Below, piece after piece: positions 1-40,888 of a stretch of DNA of 64,000 bases; the stretch's first letter is position 1; each line of letters begins with the position of its first letter. The stretch covers positions 232,388 to 296,387 of the forward strand of contig SJCO01000006.1 of the NCBI GenBank assembly GCA_005217565.1. Direction: 5' to 3'. A model generated the notes under the pieces. The model had not been told where the DNA came from. It saw only the letters and a list, made by a program, of their open reading frames with translations, and ran no database searches. Both the position numbers and the translations under genes were made by a program. The stretch comes from Puteibacter caeruleilacunae. Lineage in GTDB: Bacteria; Bacteroidota; Bacteroidia; Bacteroidales; Prolixibacteraceae.

Positions 1-1120
1 CTTCTTTTCTGTATCTTAACTTTAAGCGGTTAGCTTGATAGTCTACAAAGTTAGAGACCGAACTTACCTCAAGCCATCTTTCCTGAGCCGCAGAGTATAC
101 CTCGAAATCGAAAGTTAGGGCAGAAGTAAAACTTAAGTCACCACCACAAAGTCTAAGGATGCGGAAGTTTAAACCTAGTTTTTCAATCAAAGCACTAACG
201 TGAGCAACCATGTCATCAAGAATAGCATATGATTTCTCAGGAGTTGCAATTTGAACAATCTCTACTTTATCGAACTGGTGTAAGCGATTCAATCCACGTA
301 CATCCGATCCGTAAGATCCTGCCTCGCGACGGAAACATGGGCTATATGCTGTGTTCTTGATTGGAAGATCTTTCTCATTAAGAATCACATCTCTATAGAT
401 GTTGGTAACAGGAACCTCAGCAGTAGGAATCATATATAGATTGTCTTCTGTGATATGATACATCTGACCTTCCTTGTCAGGAAGCTGTCCGGTACCAAAT
501 CCTGAGTCTTCATTTACCATTAGTGGAGGCATAACTTCAACATAACCACCATCACGGGCCTGGTCAAGGAAGAAGTTAATCAATGCTCTTTGAAGTCTTG
601 CTCCTTTTCCTTTGTATACAGGGAATCCTGCACCAGTGATTTTATTTCCTAGTTCCCAGTCGATGATGTCATACTTAGTTGCAAGATCCCAGTGAGGAAG
701 TGCATTTTCAGGAAGATTAGGCATTTCTCCATGAGTTGAAACAACCTCATTATCTTCATCACTTTTACCTGCAGGAACAGATTCGTGAGGGATGTTTGGG
801 ATTTGAACTAGTAATTCATTCAATTGAACATCGATGTTACTGAATTCTTGTCCCAGGTCTTTAATATCTTCTTTTAATTGAGCTGTTTTATCTTTAGCAG
901 CATTTGCTTCTTGTACTTTCCCTTGCTTAAAAAGATTACCAATTTCCTTGGAAAGTGAGTTCATTTCTGCTTTTTTCTGATCCAACTCTTGCTGAATCTC
1001 ATTCTTACGAGTGTAGATTGTACATACTTTTTCTACAACCTCCTTGGCATCAAAGTTCTTGACTGCCAGCTTTTCAATCACAAACTCTGGATTGTCTTTT
1101 ATAAATTTTAGACTAAGCAT
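1..1120 (-). CDS. serS: Seryl-tRNA synthetase, 3' end outside the window
   Basis: Class II aminoacyl-tRNA synthetase that charges tRNA-Ser in the cytoplasm. I translated it by hand from the ATG at 1118-1120: it begins MLSLKFIKDNPEF and reads for about 373 codons to the window edge, where the family is usually about 425 residues long, so only the C-terminal tail is missing. The N-terminal long coiled-coil arm that grips tRNA-Ser is visible (residues about 30-105, rich in K, E and Q). It is followed by the catalytic core with the motif 2 region (FRREAGSYGSD). A TACCTTTG box lies 35 bases upstream of the start. It is separated from rpmA upstream by that gene's terminator, so it is probably its own transcript. 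No oddities seen. Identity is secure. Confidence 0.97.
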   Translation of the reverse strand, partial: MLSLKFIKDNPEFVIEKLAVKNFDAKEVVEKVCTIYTRKNEIQQELDQKKAEMNSLSKEIGNLFKQGKVQEANAAKDKTAQLKEDIKDLGQEFSNIDVQLNELLVQIPNIPHESVPAGKSDEDNEVVSTHGEMPNLPENALPHWDLATKYDIIDWELGNKITGAGFPVYKGKGARLQRALINFFLDQARDGGYVEVMPPLMVNEDSGFGTGQLPDKEGQMYHITEDNLYMIPTAEVPVTNIYRDVILNEKDLPIKNTAYSPCFRREAGSYGSDVRGLNRLHQFDKVEIVQIATPEKSYAILDDMVAHVSALIEKLGLNFRILRLCGGDLSFTSALTFDFEVYSAAQERWLEVSSVSNFVDYQANRLKLRYRKE

Positions 1121-37051: not shown

Positions 37052-38380
37052 ATGGAGAACAGACAAGGTTTTTTAGAATCGCATGGGATAACGTTTCATC
37101 AGAGTGTAACGTTTAAACTTTTCACTATTGGATTTCTTGTATTGCTATTATGGATTCCTTCTTCAATGATCTCTTCATTAGTAAGAGAACGCAGGGGAAC
37201 TCAAGTGGCAGCACGCAATGAAGTGATGAGTCGCTGGAGTGAGCAACAGACGGTAAGGGGGCCATTTCTTAGTATCCCTTTTAAAAAAGAAAGGATTGAT
37301 AAAGAAACCAAGGAGGTTTCATATGAGATACAAACGGCACACTTTCTTCCAAATGAACTAATGATATCAGGTGATGTAGAGCCACATACATTAAAGCGTA
37401 GTATTTATAAGATTATCGTTTACGAGAGTAAGCTAATGCTATCCGGACATTTTGATAAGCCTGATTTCTCACAATGGAACATTAAGCCTGAAAATATCTT
37501 GTGGGATAAAGCCCAGGTAAGTATCGGACTTTCTGATCCCCGAGGAATTCAAGAACAGGTAAAATTTACACTCGATGGGAAACAACAGGAGTTTGTCCCC
37601 GGATTAAATGAAGGCTTAGCAGGCAAGAAAGGAATACACTTGATTCAACCAATTGATCCAGAAAATTTCTCAGGAGAGTTTATTTGTGATTTAAGTGTGA
37701 AAGGATCGGAGAGTTTAATGTTTGCTCCAATCGGAAAAACTACTACTTGTGAGCTGAAGTCTCCCTGGAAATCTCCTAGTTTTGTTGGTGCTTTCACTAC
37801 AACCGATCGTCAGATTGATGAATCAGGCTTTAATGCAAAATGGAAAATTCTACATTTTAATCGCGACTTCCCACAACAATGGAGAGGAGACGACTATAGT
37901 CCGCGGAACAATGATTTCGGGGTTAATCTAATTGTTACAGCAGATGATTACCAGAAAAATATTCGTAGTTCGAAATATGCAATACTCATTATTTTGCTCA
38001 CGTTTCTGACCTTCTTTATGAGTGAAGTACTGGATAAAAATCGCATCCACCCATTACAATATATCATGGTCGGTCTGGCTGTTGTTATCTTCTATCTCCT
38101 ACTATTGTCTCTGTCGGAACATGCAGGCTTTAATCTGGCTTATCTGTTGTCGTGCTTCGCGGTGGTAGTGTTAATATTTTTCTACTCTAAGGCATTCTTA
38201 TCCAAAGTGAGAACTGCATTTATTTTAGCCGGATTACAGTGTGTTGTGTTTGGATTTATTTATGTGTTGTTGCAGATGGAAGACTACGCCTTGTTGATGG
38301 GAAGTATTGGTATGTTCAGTATCCTTTCTGTGATCATGATTTTCACAAGGAAAATGGATTGGTATAAAATAGGAAAGTAA
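37052..38380 (+). CDS. creD: Inner-membrane protein CreD
   Basis: A 442-residue membrane protein of the CreD family. It has one N-terminal membrane helix (about 24-46), a large periplasmic domain beginning ERRGTQVAARNEVMSRWSEQQTVRGPFLSIPF, and about six C-terminal helices (about 310-440, starting KYAILIILLTFLTFFMSEVLDKNRIHPLQYIMVGLAV). In E. coli creD belongs to the CreBC regulon and affects colicin E2 tolerance and envelope state. No creBC genes are here; control seems to be by the winged-helix protein. A small membrane protein gene follows after 21 bases. Confidence 0.92.
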   Translation: MENRQGFLESHGITFHQSVTFKLFTIGFLVLLLWIPSSMISSLVRERRGTQVAARNEVMSRWSEQQTVRGPFLSIPFKKERIDKETKEVSYEIQTAHFLPNELMISGDVEPHTLKRSIYKIIVYESKLMLSGHFDKPDFSQWNIKPENILWDKAQVSIGLSDPRGIQEQVKFTLDGKQQEFVPGLNEGLAGKKGIHLIQPIDPENFSGEFICDLSVKGSESLMFAPIGKTTTCELKSPWKSPSFVGAFTTTDRQIDESGFNAKWKILHFNRDFPQQWRGDDYSPRNNDFGVNLIVTADDYQKNIRSSKYAILIILLTFLTFFMSEVLDKNRIHPLQYIMVGLAVVIFYLLLLSLSEHAGFNLAYLLSCFAVVVLIFFYSKAFLSKVRTAFILAGLQCVVFGFIYVLLQMEDYALLMGSIGMFSILSVIMIFTRKMDWYKIGK

Positions 38381-38401
38381 AGACTTATAAATAAGAATAA
38401 G

Positions 38402-38617
38402 ATGAAACGAAATGTATTGGTTATTGTTTGGTTTGTATTGGCTCTTGTGTGCTATGCAATTTATAGAATCTATGGCGTTGAAGTGCAAGAAGATGGTACA
38501 TTGCAGGAATTATTTGTAATGATCCCTTTGGCTTATTTGTTTGTGATGGTAGGCGCGGTTACACTTGTCATTCGAGTTATTCACAGTAGAGGTGCTCGAA
38601 CAATTACATCAGATTAG
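38402..38617 (+). CDS. Small two-helix membrane protein
   Basis: A 71-residue product with two membrane helices (about 4-21 and 36-57) and a short charged linker (EVQEDGTLQE). Unknown family. It is the last gene of the creD operon, directly ahead of a strong terminator, which supports it as a real gene. Confidence 0.65.
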   Translation: MKRNVLVIVWFVLALVCYAIYRIYGVEVQEDGTLQELFVMIPLAYLFVMVGAVTLVIRVIHSRGARTITSD

Positions 38618-38644
38618 TCATTAAATTTTCAAAAGCAAAGTACG

Positions 38645-38683
38645 AGACCGCAATTGACATCCGTTTGTTGCGGTCTTATTTTT
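38645..38683 (+). terminator. creD operon terminator
   Basis: AGACCGCAA (38645-38653) pairs with TTGCGGTCT (38668-38676), followed by TATTTTTTT. Confidence 0.88.
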
Positions 38684-38690
38684 TTAATAT

Positions 38691-38771
38691 TGCACTCTTA
38701 GAGAGCATAAATCGATCTAAAATGCACTCAAGGAGAGCAAAAAAGAGCTTTAATTGCACTATTTGAGAGCA
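38691..38771. repeat. Three 17-base dyad repeats with exact 32-base period
   Basis: Copies at 38691-38707 (TGCACTCTTAGAGAGCA), 38723-38739 (TGCACTCAAGGAGAGCA) and 38755-38771 (TGCACTATTTGAGAGCA). The ends TGCACT and GAGAGCA are constant; the 15-base spacers differ. Each copy is an imperfect inverted repeat (TGCxCTC / GAGxGCA). The third copy runs straight into the ATPase remnant. Confidence 0.85.
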
Positions 38772-39059
38772 AAAATTTACCTTGACAATAGTAATCTGGC
38801 CTATACTCTTGTTGATGAAGTTGCGAATACTGGAATTATTAGGGAGACATTTTTTATAAACCAACTTCGAGTAAAATACATTATAGCAGAATCTACAGTT
38901 TCTGATTTTGTGGTGGAGGATATGACTTTTGAGGTTGGCGGCAAAAATAAAACGCAAAGACAAATACGTAATGTATCCGATTCTTATGTTGTTAAAGATG
39001 ATATTGAAAATGGCTTTGGTAACGTCATTCCACTTTGGCAGTTTGGTATGATGTACTAA
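38754..39059 (+). pseudogene. C-terminal remnant of an AAA-family ATPase
   Basis: The 101-codon frame matches, by recall, the last quarter of the ~390-residue AAA ATPases (DUF4143-linked) common in Bacteroidota: KIYLDNSNLAYTL, GIIRETFFINQL, FEVGGKNKTQRQIRNVSDSYVVKDDIENGFGNVIPLWQFGM. The ATP-binding half (Walker A and B) is absent, and no ATG opens the frame. The similarity begins at about 38772, exactly where the third 17-base repeat ends. I read it as a decayed gene whose 5' part has been lost, with its natural 3' end kept. Confidence 0.75.
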
Positions 39060-39103
39060 ATCAATATCAGCTGTTCTATTTAATTTCTAAAGAAGAGAAT
39101 ATT

Positions 39104-39694
39104 CTAGACAAACACTCTCTTCTTTGGATTAAATATATCCTCCATTTCGGGAGGAAGATCCACATGTTCGGTAAAGAAATCATCCATGATTTCCTGAGTC
39201 TCCTTTGATAATAGTTCGCTTAATTCATCCACTACCTCTCCAGATATCATATAAGGTAGGTCGTGAAAAAGCATATGTGGGCCGGCACAAATTGCACTGA
39301 CTTTAAAATCGTCTAATTCCTCAATGTTTTTTTGAGTAACAATACAATGTTGCAACCAAATGTTCACCTCAAACAATTTGTGCTTCTTTAAAGTCTCAGT
39401 GCGAGCTTTCATGTCCACCTTTTCAATGAAATACTTTTGCAGTGTTGCCTGTGATTTTTTCGATAATTGCTGTCGAAACTTCATGGCACAATCCCAGCAA
39501 ATGACCAGTTCATAGTCTAGCATTCGCTTGCCTGTTTTAATATCTTGTCGGTAGTGTTTTTCAATGAAATAAGTTTCTTCACTCTCGATTAACTCTCTGT
39601 CACAAACTTTACAGTGTTTGAATGGAGTTGTTTTGCCTTCCGGATAAAAAATATCGGGGATAGGGATAAAATCGTTAACTACTATGTTCGCCAT
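39104..39694 (-). CDS. Hypothetical protein with two CxxC pairs
   Basis: Unrecognised, 196 residues from the ATG at 39694 (an ATG five codons earlier is less likely). Two CxxC pairs, C28/C31 (FKHCKVCDREL) and C66/C69 (VICWDCAMKF), separated by ~35 residues could bind one zinc ion. The C-terminal half is acidic (SELLSKETQEIMDDFFTEHVDLPPEMEDIFNP). No membrane segments. It lies downstream of the higBA pair in the same direction, 67 bases from higA; a functional link is not evident. Confidence 0.65.
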   Translation of the reverse strand: MANIVVNDFIPIPDIFYPEGKTTPFKHCKVCDRELIESEETYFIEKHYRQDIKTGKRMLDYELVICWDCAMKFRQQLSKKSQATLQKYFIEKVDMKARTETLKKHKLFEVNIWLQHCIVTQKNIEELDDFKVSAICAGPHMLFHDLPYMISGEVVDELSELLSKETQEIMDDFFTEHVDLPPEMEDIFNPKKRVFV

Positions 39695-39761: not shown

Positions 39762-40313
39762 TTAAGCCCATTCAATTTTTTTCAATTTTAATTTAGGCTT
39801 ATTCAATTTACGGATTGACTCTTTAATTTTGATGCTGGTCTCATCTTGAAGATAGATTGGGATTAGTGTTTTTAAACTGATTCCAAAGATGCGATGAATA
39901 ATAACCAGATCTTTCATGGTAAACTGTGAAATGCCATTCATTAATTCGCTCATGTATGACTTAGGATGTCCTAAAAGAATACCTAAATCTTGTTGGTTCA
40001 TGTCGAAATCCTTGAGTTTTTTGCGGATGGTTTCTTTGCGTTTGTTGATGAATTGTTGTTCAAAGTTAATGATTTTTTCAGCTTTATCTGACTCGACAAT
40101 TTGTTCGTCAGATATACTCTGTAAATCGGACCAATTGCTATTTTCGTATGCTTTGATTAGTTTGCGTAGTTTCTGTCGGAAAGGTTTAAGTGTTGGATCA
40201 TCCTTGATCATTAAGCGAAGTTTTCTTTCCAACAGAGATGCTTTTTGAAGATCATACTCATTCTCCAGCCTGTCTATGTGTTCAATTTCCTTTATTTCAA
40301 TCAAATCTCTCAT
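39762..40313 (-). CDS. higA: HigA-type XRE antitoxin
   Basis: A 183-residue protein with a C-terminal Cro/CI helix-turn-helix (about 105-155: FDMNQQDLGILLGHPKSYMSELMNGISQFTMKDLVIIHRIFGI) and a long helical N-terminus. It is encoded directly after a HigB toxin on the same strand, the reversed toxin-first order typical of hig modules. The ATG at 40313 follows the toxin stop by 11 bases; a TTG at 40334 overlapping the toxin is an alternative. It probably neutralises the toxin and represses the operon. Confidence 0.85.
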   Translation of the reverse strand: MRDLIEIKEIEHIDRLENEYDLQKASLLERKLRLMIKDDPTLKPFRQKLRKLIKAYENSNWSDLQSISDEQIVESDKAEKIINFEQQFINKRKETIRKKLKDFDMNQQDLGILLGHPKSYMSELMNGISQFTMKDLVIIHRIFGISLKTLIPIYLQDETSIKIKESIRKLNKPKLKLKKIEWA

Positions 40314-40324
40314 TACATCTACTT

Positions 40325-40666
40325 TTATATCCAACTATTGTCTTTCAACCACTTCTTAATGACATTTCGGTTGTTCTTAAAGGTCAACTCATATTCATCA
40401 TGACTTCCAGCCCAAACGATTGATACTTCTTCATCTTCATCAAATTCGATTAAGATGAGGGTTCTGTGAATATTTATATTAAAAAAATAAAATTCACCGC
40501 CATACACACAATCTGCATCAGGCCTGATGTTTATCAAATCATGAGGTGTTTTCCAGTGATTTAACTCTATATCTTTAATGAGTTGATCTATGGCCCTCAT
40601 AAGTTTGGTGTTTCCTCGGTTCTTTCGAATAAGTTTTTTTAATATGAATTTGTTAGTAATGTTCAA
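40325..40666 (-). CDS. higB: HigB-type mRNA interferase toxin
   Basis: RelE/ParE-superfamily ribosome-dependent endoribonuclease. Family signatures are the ELNHWKTPHDL block (about 35-45), the YFFNINIHRTLILIEF strand pair and WAGSHDEYE near the C-terminus. The start chosen is a TTG giving (M)NITNKFILKKL, because this matches the short N-terminus of HigB proteins and lies just downstream of a TACCTTTG box. That gives 113 residues. A longer frame reaches a TTG at 40726 upstream of the promoter and is less likely. Confidence 0.82.
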   Translation of the reverse strand: MNITNKFILKKLIRKNRGNTKLMRAIDQLIKDIELNHWKTPHDLINIRPDADCVYGGEFYFFNINIHRTLILIEFDEDEEVSIVWAGSHDEYELTFKNNRNVIKKWLKDNSWI

Positions 40667-40690
40667 CTTGTCAGGCTTCGGTATATACGA

Positions 40691-40698
40691 CAAAGGTA
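40691..40698 (-). promoter_or_regulatory. Probable higBA -7 box
   Basis: The minus strand reads TACCTTTG, an exact TAnnTTTG, about 25 bases before the chosen higB TTG. No -33 element at ideal spacing. Confidence 0.45.
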
Positions 40699-40888
40699 AT
40701 AAAAAGTTCTGAAAAAATAAGAACAAATATTTCTCCTCCTGTGCTGAATATTTCCCACTAGTTTAATCTAATGGTTGTTTTACATAGGCAATTATTTTAG
40801 TTGTTAACTCTTATTGTTTATTTCGCATAGGGATGTAGAATCCCTTGTCAATGTGCCTTTTGGATATTTCGTTTATGCATGTGACGCA

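Follow-up and report, generated by a model that had tools for sequence, protein, structure and literature searches.

An array of three dyads beside an ATPase gene remnant in Puteibacter caeruleilacunae: a probable orphan operator from a family with a fixed 32/33-bp step

The array and the broken gene in the Puteibacter window

The window, a stretch of 64,000 nucleotides from Puteibacter caeruleilacunae, carries three 17-mers of the form TGCACT-N5-AGAGCA, set at two exact 32-base steps and separated by 15-base spacers that are mutually unrelated (Table 1); the first-pass annotation had placed these copies at 38691, 38723 and 38755, and the positions were confirmed. The dyads are imperfect, since the half-sites TGCACT and TGCTCT agree at 5/6 positions. 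A search of the whole 7.97-Mb genome with TGCACTN{3,7}GAGAGCA returned three forward matches, all in the window array, and none in reverse, and the reversed control pattern had no match across the genome. The expectation that the repeat occurs elsewhere in the genome held in part: the exact repeat is found nowhere else, while the genome's other close homologue (L005) has related dyads 32 bp apart. The general repeat search at default settings did not report the window array. To the left of the array lies a DUF3955 gene (Pfam), whose terminator-like hairpin and T run stop, as judged by eye, a few bases 5' of dyad 1.

Table 1. Features at and around the array (positions in the window)
Feature	Position	Strand	Basis
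Terminator-like hairpin GACCGCAA ... TTGCGGTC with T run, of the upstream DUF3955 gene	38646..38685	+	by eye
Dyad 1, TGCACTCTTAGAGAGCA	38691..38707	+	window letters, whole-genome pattern search
Dyad 2, TGCACTCAAGGAGAGCA	38723..38739	+	window letters, whole-genome pattern search
Dyad 3, TGCACTATTTGAGAGCA; its end is the deletion junction	38755..38771	+	window letters, whole-genome pattern search
In-frame AAA_14/DUF4143 ATPase C-terminal remnant, ~residues 295-389 plus stop	38772..39059	+	HMM E 3.5e-43
HigB-type toxin ORF and adjoining HTH_3 gene	39762..40726	-	PF09907, E 3.1e-12 (toxin ORF)
Two adjacent large ORFs, 748 and 678 aa	40943..45257	-	

Similarity to the ATPase family begins directly after the last base of dyad 3, as the first reading had it, and runs in frame to the stop codon at 39057-39059. 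The remnant covers profile positions 301-397 in the HMM search, corresponding to the last ~95 residues of homologues of ~389 residues. The earlier claim that the rest of the gene is missing was borne out: ~294 codons are absent, together with the promoter and the start codon, and the window copy has neither the ATPase domain nor the winged helix of complete members (domain limits from structure models). Pfam gave no match for the remnant alone; its identity as AAA_14/DUF4143 follows because full-length homologues, of which it is the C-terminal part, carry those domains (PF13173 and PF13635). AAA_14 was above the Pfam cut-off in 6/6 full-length homologues scanned, and four of the six reached the DUF4143 cut-off of 28.1 bits, L024 barely, with L013 and L006 below it. 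We take this family to be COG1373. A match to the C-terminal region that the remnant represents was present in 52 of the 61 genomes searched, its own genome counted. The gene of the window is broken but still open in frame and its probable operator is intact, a modest result for the window itself. Judged from the sequence comparison, dyad 3 is the counterpart of the promoter-proximal dyad in intact relatives. The motif TACCTTG, 6 nt after dyad 3, was considered as a remnant of the promoter and rejected, being coding sequence moved there by the deletion.

Beyond the remnant, the HigB-type ORF lies directly 5' of an HTH_3 gene that falls just below the Pfam cut-off, and the two likely form a toxin-antitoxin pair. 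By a motif, the two large ORFs that follow have the look of GH92-type mannosidases.

Arrays upstream of full-length ATPases

Two TGCAC-N7-GTGCA dyads, with a spacer of 5-25 bases allowed, were searched for in 396 related genomes. This revealed 18 pair sites in 17 arrays, every spacer being 15 or 16 bases long, and the reversed control pattern gave no pair site in the same 396 genomes. Ten of the 17 arrays lie directly upstream of a full-length ATPase, which is the arrangement that the first-pass annotation had proposed to look for in relatives; five lie at a remnant (L037, L039, L040, L041 and L044, the tail of the last being weak, E 0.012) and two at neither. Like the window, the intact relative L009, whose array is also that of L045, carries three dyads with both steps exactly 32 (32+32). 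The two arrays at neither a gene nor a remnant, L043/L298 (G065:C9:214278-214326) and L046/L299 (G054:C3:50936-50984), are perfect two-dyad arrays for which no ATPase or remnant of their own was found nearby; that of L046/L299 lies downstream of an intact member of the family, at a distance of 1.3 kb. At another locus (L015, G002:C30), a scrap resembling the C-terminus of another member was seen by eye just upstream of the array of the intact copy.

The spacing of the dyads extends to much more distant members of the family. Of 97 confirmed homologues, the best 80 (35-68% identity to the query L007) were taken first; going by record titles, most are from Bacteroidota, with some from Campylobacterota and a few others. 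In their upstream regions, the sequence of the repeat varies by clade and the step is constant. When 79 upstream regions were compared with themselves, an identity of at least 15/18 was reached at shift 32 in 12 loci and at shift 33 in 10, and at each of the other 40 shifts in 0 or 1 locus. We also retained the best tandem dyad per upstream region, with every step from 20 to 60 permitted. The best spacing was 32/33 in 55/80 loci of these best 80 of 97 homologues (shuffles: mean 4.0, maximum 9), as against 31/417 control regions upstream of other mechanical ORFs (at least 150 aa, same loci). Among the homologues with less than 50% identity, 32/33 was best in 42/57, and none of these had a TGCAC/GTGCA dyad. 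A validation set of 98 loci (96 full length) was picked by protein match irrespective of arrays and reduced to 57 by dropping those at least 80% identical to the first set of loci (set 1) or to one another; here 32/33 was best in 39/57 (shuffles: mean 3.3, maximum 7). The claim of a multi-site operator belonging to this ATPase family is thus supported by many full-length homologues with 32/33-bp arrays just upstream. Its extension to all intact homologues stood for most of them, and about 30% had no 32/33 array by the scan (25/80 of the best 80 of 97, and 18/57 in the validation set).

Clear arrays were found in 75 of 163 loci, with two (51 loci), three (21), four (2) or six copies (1), and steps of 32 (50 cases) or 33 bp (54 cases). 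The 75 seed steps were confined to 32/33, and the 29 extension steps were free over 31-34, with ties assigned to 32/33; all 29 were 32 or 33. L080 from Parapedobacter koreensis Jip14, for example, has three TGTTTA-type dyads, at -86, -54 and -21. Intact members carry two to four, rarely more, dyads of 17-18 bp, mostly with outer TG/CA bases. Half-site scoring demanded a G at position 2, so that the outer TG is partly imposed; without this demand, the half-site started with TG in 54/106 loci. A step of 32/33 bp is about three helical turns, so the dyads would share one face of the DNA.

The position of the arrays relative to the promoter was studied most closely in the TGCAC-type clade. In 27 of its 33 loci, which include one duplicate species (L016/L062), a TAnnTTT(G) box begins 5-9 nt after the last dyad, as a raw count; the six loci lacking the box are L051, L070, L071, L073, L013 and L029. 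This box corresponds to the consensus of the Bacteroidota -7 element. Therefore, the last dyad covers the spacer and the -33 region and overlaps the promoter of its own gene in this clade, which fits a repressor site, as expected. The other clades were judged by eye, and in certain of them the second dyad sits downstream of the -7 box, ahead of the start codon. From these positions, the dyads probably serve to repress their own gene, and they could activate it instead.

The half-sites also vary along with a residue of the ATPase itself. A clear half-site for this comparison was available in 52/106 loci of set 1 (48 non-redundant) and in 23/57 of the validation set. In set 1, residue 262 was the top column covarying with half-site similarity once overall identity was removed (partial r 0.379), followed by columns 293 and 219. 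In the validation set, it ranked third of 335 columns, behind 375 and 216, and the column window 201-229 outscored 261-289. The association of N262 with C at half-site position 3 in set 1 gave counts of 28, 3, 3 and 14 (Fisher test, phylogeny ignored; P = 7.4e-7), and 9, 3, 3 and 14 when CAC half-sites were excluded (phylogeny ignored; P = 0.006), and that of D/E262 with C at position 4 gave 4, 2, 1 and 41 (phylogeny ignored; P = 3.7e-4). The corresponding validation counts were 6, 2, 1 and 14 for N262/C3 and 5, 3, 0 and 15 for D/E262/C4 (Fisher test, phylogeny ignored; P = 0.0017 for each). Contrasts between closest pairs were drawn from 68 loci with both sets pooled, including set 1, where the rule arose. 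Pairs differing at base 3 were concordant with residue 262 in 24 cases, opposite in none and unchanged in 8, and none of the 286 columns did better than 262. The contrasts of base 4 with D/E262 gave 7 concordant, 0 opposite and 3 unchanged, with other columns nearly equal. Residue 262 opens the recognition helix predicted for the winged helix of the ATPase itself, and the preceding R261 is almost invariant.

This helix was placed with an AlphaFold2 model of L051 built from 48 sequences (pLDDT 91.2, pTM 0.89), which shows a winged helix with a predicted recognition helix at 261-273. The C-terminal half, modelled on its own (mean pLDDT 90), resembled MarR-type DNA-binding repressors in Foldseek (best E 3.1e-3, no hit under 0.001) and Fur, ArsR and CAP types in the VIA second look (Z of at most 9.3 over 87 residues), where ranks 2 and 3 were winged helices of plant NLR proteins. 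The modelled likeness to bacterial repressors is a resemblance of fold only, of middling strength. For the ATPase model, Foldseek against the PDB returned mixed AAA+ and STAND rows, and the second look put archaeal ATPases and STAND proteins on top, one Avs protein among them. Searching by sequence for relatives of solved structure turned up P-loop matches to RecA fusions and Bloom helicase, and a weak one to ORC4. The C-terminal domain that survives in the remnant was assigned no fold by these searches, the second-look rows covering mainly model residues 1-105; its D339 and E348-x-G-G-K may allow a nuclease-like reading.

Gene loss at the dnaK site and among other remnants

The combination of an array with a C-terminal tail recurs next to dnaK, at a site that still holds the complete gene in relatives, which agrees with the proposal of an operator whose gene was deleted. 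Just downstream of dnaK, G111 has an array and a full gene; in G094 the array is accompanied by a few codons of the N-terminus and a weak tail, and in G123 a tail is all that is seen. Of the 30 dnaK-downstream sites compared, a further two (L273 and L284) hold an ATPase that is distantly related, and nothing of the family is present at 25; the relatives are too divergent to place exact boundaries or an empty site. In another genus, the dnaK-linked locus has a full gene in G145 and an array plus tail in G112 (L040), with left flanks, the start of the array included, that align at 86% over 103 columns. The L040 junction is at GCAAAT, a hexamer also present there in the intact gene. The comparison of these two sequences points to a deletion through a short stretch of microhomology that ends within the last dyad. 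The junction in the window joins GAGAGCA to AAAATTTAC and would fit such a deletion, its intact relatives being distant ones. In the family of the window's organism, the site right after the dnaK terminator is repeatedly occupied by ATPases or remnants (L262, L263, L264, L040 and L183), intact in G111 and G145 and as remnants in G094, G112 and G123.

Array-plus-tail as a general rule for remnants was considered and rejected. We examined 19 left ends of remnants found by their C-terminus, with contig-edge matches excluded; L039 came from the array search alone, and L040 and L041 were found by both routes. As judged by eye, an array or dyad was present at eight of the 19 (window, L039, L040, L041, L131, L134, L139 and L151) and no array at seven (L132, L133, L135, L142, L145, L147 and L150), and L138, L141, L144 and L146 were left unclassified. 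Six of the seven array-less 3' remnants kept just the last 33-66 residues. Gene loss, given these remnants without an array, takes several routes.

A probable orphan operator and its alternatives

The array of the window is probably the orphan operator of an ATPase that binds its own operator and is likely to repress its own gene; the multi-dyad operator would have co-evolved with the protein, and in this copy the promoter and gene body have been deleted. Most likely, such an ATPase would bind its own dyads through the winged helix located between the ATPase domain and the C-terminal domain, and several copies would bind cooperatively and repress their own gene. The inner bases of the half-sites shift by clade along with residue 262, which would give each member its own address. 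In the window, the promoter was deleted together with the first ~294 codons, probably through microhomology of a few bases where the last dyad ends, and the array and the tail stayed.

In STAND proteins such as CED-4 and plant NLRs the winged helix is a structural element, and winged helices of this kind are among the fold neighbours of the ATPase model. The domain could be structural here too, and the array could be an operator for some other regulator that controls these ATPases in trans. Such a shared regulator should preserve the sequence of its sites; instead, homologues below 50% identity, which lack the TGCAC dyad, keep only the geometry, and from clade to clade the repeat varies along with a residue in the recognition helix of the ATPase. 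We consider this explanation unlikely. The array could also be a loading or assembly platform for a resting ATPase that is released or activated by invading DNA, with orphan arrays acting as decoys or sensors for surviving paralogues. Arrays that reach six dyads would suit it, as would L043 and L046, whose two-dyad arrays are intact but belong to no gene, the kinship of fold with STAND sensors, including the Avs protein, and the match of the family to the PADLOC phage-defence candidate PDC-S01. Nevertheless, L043 and L046 could be remnants of recent origin, the arrays of the examined clade sit at their own promoter, and autoregulation is simpler, which makes a platform quite improbable.

The first-pass annotation had offered an unrecognised mobile unit as its other possibility, the array being one end and the 3' end of the gene the other, and the array-plus-tail loci being non-autonomous, internally deleted copies. 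This is not supported, and we hold it to be very improbable: there is no inverted copy of the array at the far end (two inverted pairs in 38000-39600 exclude the array), the window array is single-copy in the genome, and the array-plus-tail arrangement is explained by deletion. Array-adjacent remnants do recur (window, L039, L040, L041 and L044), some of them right after the terminator of the upstream gene, but their extents vary, and intact and deleted alleles at the dnaK site have a common left flank. Some plasmids carry homologues too, but all 36 plasmid records with a match were typed as non-mobilizable, and viral matches are few (5 contigs). An array overlapping a promoter suits an operator.

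The fixed 32/33-bp geometry and the simple N262/C3 and D/E262/C4 rule would together predict a DNA target from the sequence of a member, name the binding module and make regulation and crosstalk between paralogues directly testable. A broader proposal, which we advance tentatively and with more doubt than conviction, is that PDC-S01 members are self-regulating, DNA-binding, STAND-like ATPases on rigid three-turn arrays, in which helix and operator have co-diversified to keep the addresses of paralogues private, the arrays perhaps being invader-triggered platforms and the orphans decoys. The PADLOC models of PDC-S01 were matched by 48/48 homologues, and by 10/10 in A1. PDC-S01 is reported to rank as the fourth most common defence-type system in prokaryotes, and most candidates like it still await experimental validation (PMC12988326). 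The PDC-S01 passages covered here deal with matters other than regulation, and no operator of AAA_14/DUF4143/PDC-S01 ATPases was found in the titles and opening lines of abstracts among the records listed from the open literature, subscription papers being outside this scope.

The closest solved folds are the archaeal AAA+ proteins SSO1545 (2fna) and PABY2304 (2qen), with Z of 15.8 and 15.7, a likeness by fold only. MalT is a STAND-fold ATPase regulator that binds tandem operator sites; it does so with a C-terminal LuxR-type HTH and activates other genes, whereas the winged helix of the window's family lies between the ATPase and C-terminal domains and the sites are at its own promoter. The operators of autorepressed toxin-antitoxin systems and of MarR/ArsR-type regulators have dyads over their own promoter that are bound by a winged helix, as would be the case here. 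They differ from the arrays described here, which hold two to six dyads with the step fixed at 32/33 bp and a sequence that diverges by clade, and in which the putative DNA-binding module is fused to an AAA ATPase. Autoregulation via dyads is already known, and the orphan operator of the window is an ordinary relic; the interesting part is the family rule behind it. As far as searched, the combination of a STAND-like ATPase that has a winged helix of its own with an array fixed at three turns and a specificity that varies by clade is new.
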